DNA of 64,000 nt from Xanthobacteraceae bacterium (GTDB lineage: Bacteria > Pseudomonadota > Alphaproteobacteria > Rhizobiales > Xanthobacteraceae), in NCBI GenBank assembly GCA_029266425.1, contig JAQSWY010000024.1, positions 50,950-114,949 of the forward strand, given 5' to 3'. Shown here piece after piece: positions 50,215 through 53,373 of this stretch. Under the pieces are notes generated by a model, which worked only from the letters and a program-made list of their open reading frames with translations, had not been told where the DNA came from and made no database searches. Positions within the stretch are counted from its first letter, which is position 1, and each line of letters begins with the position of its first letter. The translations under genes and the position numbers were made by a program.

Positions 50215-51234
50215 ATGGCCGCTTCCGCACAGCCCGATCGCCTGCAATCTCCCGGCGCCTCCGACGCCGAGAGCCGGCTTTCGATCGGCCTCAGCGCGGT
50301 GATCGTCGCCGTGACCGGCGATGATCCCAAGGTGCTCGCCGTTCGTCATGCGGGGCGCGAGGGTGCGGGCGGGCGCGAAGCGCTGCCGTCCGGCCCGCTG
50401 GAGCGCGGCCACCGCACGCTGGAAGCGGGACTGCGCAACTGGGTGGAGCGGCAGACCCATCAGGTGCTCGGCCATGTCGAGCAGCTCTATACCTTCGGCG
50501 ACCGCGACCGCCGGGAGACCGACGGCGAGGACGCCGACCACGCACTCTCGGTCGCCTATCTCGCGCTGGTGCGCGAGGCGCGCCCGGCCGGCGACGCCGA
50601 TGCGGCGTGGGAGAGCTGGTACCGCTATTTCCCCTGGGAGGATTGGCGCGATGGCCGTCCGGCGGTGCTCGACGCGCTGGAGCCGGGGCTGCGCGCCTGG
50701 GCAGCCTCCGCACCGAGCGCCGCGCTGGGCACCATCCGGGCCGAGCGGCTCTCGCTCGCCTTCGGCTCGGCCCAGGGCCGCGACGAGGAGCGGGTGCTGG
50801 AGCGCTACGAGCTGCTCTACGAGGCCGGCATGGTGGCGGAAGCGCTGCGCGAGCGCGGCCTGCCGGAGGGCGCCTCGCGCCCGGCTACCTTCCTGCCCGG
50901 CGTCGAGATGGCGGGCGACCATCGCCGCATGCTGGCGCTCGCCATCGCCCGGCTGCGCGGCAAGATCAAATACCGCCCAGTGGTGTTCGAACTGATGCCC
51001 CCCACCTTCACGCTCGGCCAGTTGCAGCGCACCGTGGAGGCGCTCTCCGGAGTGCGGCTGCACAAGCAGAATTTCCGCCGCCTGATCGAGCAGCAGCGCC
51101 TGGTCGAGGAGACCGGCGAAGCCACCAGCGAGACCGGCGGGCGCCCCGCCCGCCTGGTGCGCTTCCGCCGCGAAGTGCTGCTGGAACGCCCCGCGCCGGG
51201 GGTGAGGCTACCGAGCGGCGGGATACGGCGGTGA
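50215..51234 (+). CDS. nrtR: NrtR-type regulator of NAD biosynthesis (Nudix-like plus winged helix)
   Basis: 339 aa from the ATG of MAASAQPDRLQ; earlier track starts fall inside the opposite gene. The N-terminal half is a Nudix-like domain (LSAVIVAVTGDDPKVLAVRH, then LRNWVERQTHQVLGHVEQLYTFGDRDR) without an intact Nudix box, so it should bind an NAD-related ligand and not hydrolyse it. The C-terminus has a winged helix (LMPPTFTLGQLQRTVEALSGVRLHKQNFRRLIEQQRLVEETGE). This matches the alphaproteobacterial NAD regulator group. It lies upstream of nadABC, before which two matching palindromes occur. A GTGA overlap links it to the next gene. Confidence 0.93.
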   Translation: MAASAQPDRLQSPGASDAESRLSIGLSAVIVAVTGDDPKVLAVRHAGREGAGGREALPSGPLERGHRTLEAGLRNWVERQTHQVLGHVEQLYTFGDRDRRETDGEDADHALSVAYLALVREARPAGDADAAWESWYRYFPWEDWRDGRPAVLDALEPGLRAWAASAPSAALGTIRAERLSLAFGSAQGRDEERVLERYELLYEAGMVAEALRERGLPEGASRPATFLPGVEMAGDHRRMLALAIARLRGKIKYRPVVFELMPPTFTLGQLQRTVEALSGVRLHKQNFRRLIEQQRLVEETGEATSETGGRPARLVRFRREVLLERPAPGVRLPSGGIRR

Positions 51235-52046
51235 GAACGCCGATCGCGGCGGAACCGCTCGCCGCGGCGCTGGACCGCGCCTATCAGGCGTTCGAGGATG
51301 TTTGGAGGCCTCGTCGGATTGAGGCTTCACCCTATAGCGCCCCGGCCGACGTAGCCGCCTTGATCGCAGTACCATTGCGCGATCTTACCGACGAACAAAT
51401 TGGCGCCTATGCCGGGTCGGCGATGCTAACCATTGGATCAGGAGAGGATTACAACTATTTCGTTCCTCGAATACTCGAATTGGCGGTCTCCGCTCCATTC
51501 TGGATCGGCACAGAACCCGAGCGGATTGCCGAAAGACTTGATATGGCCGGGTGGAGGGCTTGGCCGGCAGAGCAGATAGCGGCGATCATCGAAGTATTCG
51601 AACTCGCGCATGCCTTGTCGGAACGTGAAGACAATGAAGCGTGGGGAAATGCGCTTATCACGCTCAAAGAAACGCGCCCGCCTGGATCGATTTGCTATGG
51701 CCCTCCGAAGCGGATCCTGTTCGTAGGCAGCCAAGACCCGATCCGCAGCGAGGCGGTGAAGCGGGTGTTCGCCCAGCGCAGTGATCTCGCAGTAAAATTC
51801 GCCGACACTGACGTGAGCGGGCCGCTGACATCCGAAATGGTCGCGTGGGCAGATATCATTTTCGCTTCAGAGAAGTATCACCGCGTCAGGATCAAGCAAC
51901 GCTTCCGCACCGCCCTAAACACAAAGCGCGTGGTCTGCCTTGACGTGCCGAAGAAACATACGTCTGACGAGACTGCGCTTGTACAGCTGCTGCAGCAGAA
52001 GATCGGGCGGTTCCTGCCTCAACTGGGCGGCCCCGCGATCAAGTGA
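51231..52046 (+). CDS. Two-domain protein: unknown alpha-helical domain plus degenerate low-molecular-weight tyrosine-phosphatase-like domain
   Basis: 271 aa, starting at a GTG whose bases overlap the TGA of nrtR. Residues 1-150 form an alpha-helical domain of unknown family (DEQIGAYAGSAMLTIGSGEDYNYFVPRILELA, WPAEQIAAIIEVFELAHALSERE). Residues 160-268 resemble small phosphatase-like proteins (KRILFVGSQDPIRSEAVKRVF, VAWADIIFASEKYHRVRIKQRF, TKRVVCLDVPKKH). The P-loop, normally CxxxxxR, here begins with Gly in GSQDPIRS, so the catalytic Cys is missing and the domain is probably a binding module. GC is lower than that of neighbours. Function unknown; coupling to nrtR suggests a link with NAD control. 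Confidence 0.8.
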   Translation: MRTPIAAEPLAAALDRAYQAFEDVWRPRRIEASPYSAPADVAALIAVPLRDLTDEQIGAYAGSAMLTIGSGEDYNYFVPRILELAVSAPFWIGTEPERIAERLDMAGWRAWPAEQIAAIIEVFELAHALSEREDNEAWGNALITLKETRPPGSICYGPPKRILFVGSQDPIRSEAVKRVFAQRSDLAVKFADTDVSGPLTSEMVAWADIIFASEKYHRVRIKQRFRTALNTKRVVCLDVPKKHTSDETALVQLLQQKIGRFLPQLGGPAIK

Positions 52047-52080
52047 GCGGTGGCGTGGAGGACGGCAGGTTGCATTGCTT

Positions 52081-52182
52081 CAGCATCTTCGAGGCCCGGC
52101 TCTGCCGGGCACCTCAGGATGAGGTCGCTCTTTGGTACAACCTCATCCTGAGGTGCGAGGGCAGCGAGCCTCGAAGGATGCC
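52081..52182. repeat. Dispersed palindromic repeat, family A (CTCGAAGGATG/CATCCTGAGG)
   Basis: Two inverted units: TCTTCGAGGCCCGGC...GCCGGGCACCTCAGGATGAGGT, then ACCTCATCCTGAGGTGCGAG...CTCGAAGGATG. Copies of this family also occur at 54931, 55928, 57769, 59307 and, cut off, at 63882. Here it separates the nrtR unit from the nadA promoter. Confidence 0.8.
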
Positions 52183-52215: not shown

Positions 52216-52247
52216 TTGACAAGGCCTTATACTCAGTCCTAGCATAA
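52216..52247 (+). promoter_or_regulatory. nadA promoter with NrtR-like operator 1
   Basis: TTGACA at 52216 and TAGCAT at 52240 are spaced 18 bases, a good sigma-70-type promoter. Overlapping it, 52227-52247 is a 21-bp imperfect palindrome TTATACTC-5-TAGCATAA. The spacing and halves match the second site at 52289. Blocking by NrtR would repress nadABC. Confidence 0.65.
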
Positions 52248-52288
52248 CTCCGACGCCGGGTCTTGAACCCGGATTTTTCGGACCCTAT

Positions 52289-52309
52289 TTATGCTCAGAT
52301 AGAGCATAA
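52289..52309 (+). promoter_or_regulatory. NrtR-like operator 2 upstream of nadA
   Basis: A perfect 8-5-8 palindrome with arms TTATGCTC and GAGCATAA, 12 bases before the nadA start and just ahead of the GGGAGG ribosome site. The form agrees with site 1, which supports a shared regulator; the flanking NrtR gene is the obvious candidate. Confidence 0.7.
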
Positions 52310-52320
52310 GGGAGGATTGA

Positions 52321-53373
52321 ATGTTCGACGCCAATCTCGCCGCCCGCGAGGACATCCGCCCCAACGTCATGCCAGCGACCGCCCGCACGGAATCCCTGCC
52401 GCTGCCGCATCTCTATGCCCGCGTCGCCAAGCAGATCACGCCGGCGGAATGGCCGCTGATCGCCCGTGAGGTCGAGGCGATCGAGCGGCTGAAGCGCGAG
52501 CGCAATGCCGTGATCCTCGGTCATAATTATCAGGCGGCGGAGATCTTCAACACGGTGGCGGATATTGTCGGTGACAGCCTGGCGCTCGCCCGCGAAGCCG
52601 AGACCGTCGATGCCGACGTCATCGTCATGGCCGGCGTGCACTTCATGGCCGAGACAGCGAAGCTCCTGAACCCCGCCAAGACCGTGCTGATCCCCGACCC
52701 GAAGGCCGGCTGCTCGCTCGCCGAATCCATCACCGCGGCCGATATCCGCCTGCTGCGCCAGCATTATCCGGGTGTGCCGGTGGTCTCCTACGTCAACACC
52801 TCAGCCGAGGTGAAGGCGGAGAGTGATTATTGCTGCACCTCCGGCAACGCCGTGAAGGTGGTGCGCCACGTCGCCAGGGAATGGGGTGTCAACCGCATCC
52901 TCATGCTGCCGGACGAATATCTCGCGCAGAACGTCCAGAAGGAGGTTCCGGAGATCGAGCTGATCGCCTGGAAGGGCCATTGCGAGGTGCATGAGCGCTT
53001 CTCGCCGCAGGACATCCGCGACCTGCGCGAGGCGCATCCCGGCGTCGTGGTGCTGGCGCATCCGGAATGCGCGCCGGACGTGGTGGCGGAAGCCGACTTC
53101 GCCGGCTCCACCGCGGCGATGGCGGATTATGTCGGTGACCACAAGCCGGGCCGCGTCGTGCTCATCACCGAATGCTCGATGGCCGACAATGTCTCGGTGC
53201 ACCATCCGGATATCGAGTTCGTCCGGCCGTGCAATCTCTGCCCGCATATGCGGCGCATCACGCTGCCGAAGATCCGGCACGCGCTGGAGACCATGACCGT
53301 CGCGGTCGAGATCGACCCGGCAATCGCCGAGCGCGCCCGCGCGCCGATCACCCGCATGCTCACCATTCGCTGA
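52321..53373 (+). CDS. nadA: Quinolinate synthase
   Basis: 350 aa. NadA condenses iminoaspartate with dihydroxyacetone phosphate to quinolinate and carries a 4Fe-4S cluster. The three ligating cysteines are seen in PDPKAGCSLAES, AHPECAPDVV and RPCNLCPHMRRITL. Also typical are ILGHNYQAAEI, GVHFMAETAKLLNP and YVNTSAEVKAESDYCCTSGNAVKVV. It starts 12 bases after an NrtR-like site with GGGAGG, and nadB follows 11 bases downstream. Confidence 0.97.
   Translation: MFDANLAAREDIRPNVMPATARTESLPLPHLYARVAKQITPAEWPLIAREVEAIERLKRERNAVILGHNYQAAEIFNTVADIVGDSLALAREAETVDADVIVMAGVHFMAETAKLLNPAKTVLIPDPKAGCSLAESITAADIRLLRQHYPGVPVVSYVNTSAEVKAESDYCCTSGNAVKVVRHVAREWGVNRILMLPDEYLAQNVQKEVPEIELIAWKGHCEVHERFSPQDIRDLREAHPGVVVLAHPECAPDVVAEADFAGSTAAMADYVGDHKPGRVVLITECSMADNVSVHHPDIEFVRPCNLCPHMRRITLPKIRHALETMTVAVEIDPAIAERARAPITRMLTIR

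Follow-up and report, generated by a model that had tools for sequence, protein, structure and literature searches.

The window analysed here, a stretch of 64,000 nucleotides, carries on its forward strand a resident nrtR gene (50278–51234), an open reading frame for a 271-residue chimeric protein (51231–52046) and a resident nadA gene (52321–53373). The product of nrtR combines a Nudix-like domain with an NrtR winged helix (NrtR_WHD, E 1.5e-20, together with NUDIX), and the downstream genes give strong matches to NadA and NadC; for NadB the match is, as one would expect, to a model of FAD-binding oxidoreductases. The chimeric gene starts on a GTG that sits inside the nrtR stop, the two genes sharing the motif GTGA, and its 816-bp frame is open end to end with zero internal stops. 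Its GC content is 0.58–0.59 compared with 0.66–0.73 for the neighbouring genes, and its GC3 is 0.61–0.73 compared with 0.84–0.89. Two 21-bp operator-like sites (52227–52247 and 52289–52309) lie downstream of the insert and upstream of nadA and are conserved in congeners; the operator pattern gave four matches, these two sites on both strands, where 0.31 were expected. A preliminary description made from the letters of this DNA had recorded the overlapping GTG start, the lower GC and the position ahead of operator-like sites of nadABC, and all three hold. A promoter-like site overlaps the first operator-like site, and between the two, in the nadA leader, there is a terminator-like hairpin (52256–52272; CCGGGTCTTGAACCCGG followed by a T-rich stretch); congeners have similar hairpins with different loops at the same spot. 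A palindromic repeat (52081–52180) lies downstream of the chimeric gene and was considered as the mark of a mobile element, an idea we rejected as its half-site is found across the genome 197 times in forward and 198 times in reverse orientation.

The protein consists of an unnamed N-terminal domain of about 150 residues and a small domain resembling the LMW protein tyrosine phosphatases (LMW-PTPs). Taken whole, it matched nothing meaningful in Pfam or NCBIfam (zero Pfam matches up to E 10) or, when searched by single sequence, in the PDB, and it was unmatched by the PADLOC anti-phage defence models up to E 1. Searching plasmids by nucleotide similarity gave no result for the chimeric gene, and in viral contigs neither the fusion nor the one N-domain relative tested gave a result. 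A structure of the whole fusion predicted from its one sequence had a pLDDT of 37 and was unusable.

Taken separately, the halves are more informative. The C-terminal ~107 residues align to short standalone proteins, some of them annotated as LMW protein tyrosine phosphatases, and four congeners carry such standalone relatives. The domain (about residues 159–265; 51705–52025, forward strand) is on its own unmatched in Pfam up to E 1, and PF01451 is matched by all nine of its aligned relatives. Modelled from an alignment, it has a predicted LMW-PTP-like fold with a pLDDT of 84, a confidence that the Cys-bearing active relatives in that alignment help to drive, and Foldseek pairs the model with LMW-PTPs at a probability of 1.00 (best E 7.7e-5), the best structural matches being LMW-PTPs, YwlE and Wzb. 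The P-loop of the relatives reads LF(V/I/L)C(S/G/T)xNxxRSxT, whereas that of the chimera is ILFVGSQDPIRSEAVKR; in this degenerate loop (FVGSQDPIRSEA; 51717–51752, forward strand) Cys has become Gly and Asn has become Asp, and the Arg and Ser are kept. The Cys is present in 52 of 52 intact relatives, of which 26 were added by sampling the whole phylum (29 hits, less three already seen), so that the chimera alone has Gly. The preliminary description had proposed both the phosphatase relationship and the Cys-to-Gly change, and alignment, model and Foldseek bear it out. Further motifs are altered as well, TAE to AVK, SAG to FAD and IPD to VPK, the last of these putting Lys in place of a near-invariant Asp, and of the 28 near-invariant columns, those with at least 90% conservation in the 20 closer relatives, the chimera retains only 15, as against losses of 0–5 in held-out relatives. 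Kept are the core fold positions, as judged from the alignment, along with the loop residues R20 and S21 and with W54, E62 and H65. Read from its sequence, the phosphatase half is predicted to have a dead active site, one that cannot support normal Cys-dependent phosphatase activity.

The N-terminal domain (about residues 1–150; 51231–51680, forward strand) had been described as an unassigned helical domain. It is still unassigned, having no library match, and its helices are visible only in a low-confidence model. Alignments identify its relatives as standalone proteins of roughly 135–260 residues scattered over alphaproteobacteria and Deinococcus plasmids, with one more distant member elsewhere in the phylum and two weak relatives (L004 and L005). 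The case thus points to an unnamed domain family that spans several alphaproteobacterial families and Deinococcus plasmids.

The chimeric gene is a recent and local insertion in one lineage. In a blastn comparison with L013, homology ends at ~51236, a few bases past the GTG, and restarts at ~52067, about 20 bp past the stop codon, so that the inserted segment of ~830 bp (approximately 51236–52066) is essentially the chimeric ORF alone; no transposon-type terminal repeat was seen at its ends. The segment is absent from the closest congener, G165, whose nrtR is 96% identical and in which nrtR and nadA are separated by 289 bp rather than the 1089 bp found here, in line with the suggestion of the preliminary description that the gene had been inserted beside nrtR. 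The gap is likewise empty in G154 and G150. Among 30 congeners, this one included, it is empty in three and holds other ORFs in 20, and for six the stretch examined yielded no nadA. Labelled by eye, the other occupants are GNAT-like acetyltransferases, toxin-antitoxin-like pairs, and SDR-like and glycosyltransferase-like proteins. In G104 and G158 (L036 and L128) a different small protein (MGYYLMVFEPSAAPP...) occupies the slot behind nrtR and points the same way. The full-length fusion occurs in one of the 30 congeners and is absent from every other genome in samples of the family, order and class (150, 398 and 385 genomes; the samples overlap in part, and the source genome is in each). The GTGA at the end of nrtR is also found in several congeners without the chimeric gene, and the start/stop overlap therefore follows from the landing place and is not evidence of co-evolution. 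Since a cargo gene can come to overlap a regulator gene simply by landing behind a pre-existing GTGA, such an overlap in a single genome is weak evidence of partnership.

We think it probable that the ORF is chimeric cargo, acquired recently and lodged in the nrtR–nadA gap, that its phosphatase half is dead, and that it is not a conserved partner of NrtR. The reading is based on the empty sites in the three congeners, the separate existence of the halves elsewhere, the foreign composition and the retained fold. The chimera would unite the N-terminal ~150 residues of a patchily distributed family with an LMW-PTP-type domain devoid of the nucleophile Cys, and the ~830-bp piece encoding it would have entered the variable gap in one lineage. 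Translation, if any, would most likely occur by termination-reinitiation at the GTGA on the nrtR transcript. Any activity would most likely come from the N-terminal domain, and the phosphatase-like half may be a structural remnant or a phosphate-binding pseudo-domain. On balance we take the gene for cargo specific to this lineage, with a function that may be fading.

A more pessimistic view of the same gene, which concerns function and is compatible with an origin as cargo, is that the insert has little or no function, the loss of the active site representing decay after fusion with stops not yet accumulated; we give this a little under an even chance. Many conserved positions have been lost at once, and no second genome keeps the ORF. 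In addition, pairwise dN/dS between the phosphatase half and three congener relatives is 0.34–0.47, compared with 0.06–0.10 among those relatives, and this would suggest relaxed constraint, although high dS and unequal divergences make the comparison only indicative. Such decay sits less easily with a frame that is open at full length, with core fold positions that are kept, and with the confident predicted fold, even if that confidence derives in part from active relatives. In simulated neutral drift, which ignores indels and gives no date for the loss of the Cys, the ORF stayed stop-free in 7% of cases at 0.1 substitutions per site and in 1% at 0.2. As the frame is intact despite large divergence, and as this outcome is rare in simulated drift, selection has probably acted on the frame over much of its history.

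Preservation of the frame would fit a working pseudoenzyme, in which the Arg and Ser retained in the loop would hold a ligand or protein that carries phosphate, with the N-terminal domain as the output module and no involvement in NAD regulation. We regard this as unlikely, even with the retention of R20, S21, W54, E62 and H65 and the occurrence of N-domain and phosphatase genes close to each other in one other alphaproteobacterial genus. In G1172, of that genus, a stretch belonging to this phosphatase family comes immediately after an N-domain gene, and in G1236, of the same genus, the two genes lie within ~1.5 kb of each other. The G1172 arrangement, with a change of frame, would give the architecture of the chimera, and the pairing in the two genomes may be more than pure accident. 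However, in G622, G835 and G1182 the phosphatase lies near pccB and no N-domain gene was detected; in four of five genomes the phosphatase gene behind pccB seems to be truncated or disrupted; and in none of 20 further N-domain loci is a phosphatase of this family nearby. In G1375 the N-domain is found behind pccB and the phosphatase is absent. The stretch behind pccB (L095, L096, L097, L165, L166 and L167) is another variable slot. We considered and rejected the proximity in G1172 and G1236 as proof of a conserved operon, given that gene order differs between the two genomes and that three others have the phosphatase with no N-domain gene detected. The pairing is equally well explained if the two genes reached one cargo slot independently. 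It is improbable, in our estimate, that the N-domain and the small phosphatase form a rare but real functional pair, near neighbours in one Caulobacteraceae-like genus, whose fused form would have turned into a pseudophosphatase and would use its dead pocket to sense a phosphorylated partner. A functional chimera would represent an LMW-PTP-type pseudoenzyme in a bacterium; a literature search on pseudophosphatases returned mainly eukaryotic examples.

The preliminary description went further and suggested that a dead phosphotyrosine-type pocket might bind a phosphorylated nucleotide or protein and thereby modulate NrtR, a proposal to which we now assign next to no probability. In the source genome the two genes are adjacent and overlap in start and stop, but nrtR is present without the fusion in 29 of 29 other congeners, the gap hosts diverse other genes, and the overlap motif was in place in congeners beforehand. 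The order nrtR–fusion recurs in no other genome examined, and the relatives of both halves are dispersed and unconnected with nrtR or nad genes: neither nrtR nor nadABC turned up in 26 loci with N-domain relatives (mostly ~6 kb each side) or, for 29 phosphatase relatives, at a distance of up to 1.5 kb. The chimera is therefore not supported as a conserved partner of NrtR. Nor does it appear as a member of an NrtR regulon, as the only operator-like sites in the window are both downstream of it, with none upstream of nrtR or of the chimeric gene itself. Those two sites are candidate NrtR operators on the strength of their position and conservation. In M. smegmatis, ADP-ribose frees the nadABC repressor NrtR from DNA, as described in a paper that does not mention a phosphatase (PMC6800001); among the papers searched, the terms 'NrtR' and 'tyrosine phosphatase' occur together only in PMC9503650, which surveys viral NAD systems. 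Finally, an assembly artefact in which a contaminant piece was joined into the contig is hardly credible: the assembly comprises 222 contigs with an estimated 7.5% contamination, but the insert is one precise ORF, more or less, inside a 115-kb contig and both of its flanks are collinear with a congener.

How the chimera compares with systems already known differs for its two halves and for its location. Relative to the small phosphatase family, it shares ~46–50% identity with the congener and Parasulfuritortus members, the conserved blocks in the same order and, in the C-domain model, an LMW-PTP-type fold, but it is without the P-loop Cys, the loop Asn, SAG and IPD, has no Pfam match of its own and is fused to an N-terminal domain. 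With LMW-PTPs of known structure, such as the arginine phosphatase YwlE, Wzb and Thermus TT1001, it has in common the predicted fold and a P-loop after the first strand, with TM-scores by query length of ~0.57–0.66 for the best matches; these proteins are 142–157 residues long, compared with ~107 here, and their catalytic Cys is absent from the chimera. With the N-domain family (for example L043, L045 and L074, and hypothetical proteins from Asticcacaulis and Deinococcus plasmids) it shares up to 48% identity, a motif around TxG..DY..FLPRxLEL and a W further on, whereas most members have ~100 residues of their own where the chimera has its phosphatase half. As for NrtR-nadABC regulatory loci, the chimeric gene resembles a component of one in being located between nrtR and nadA, but it is conserved in none of those examined and has no operator-like site 5' of it.
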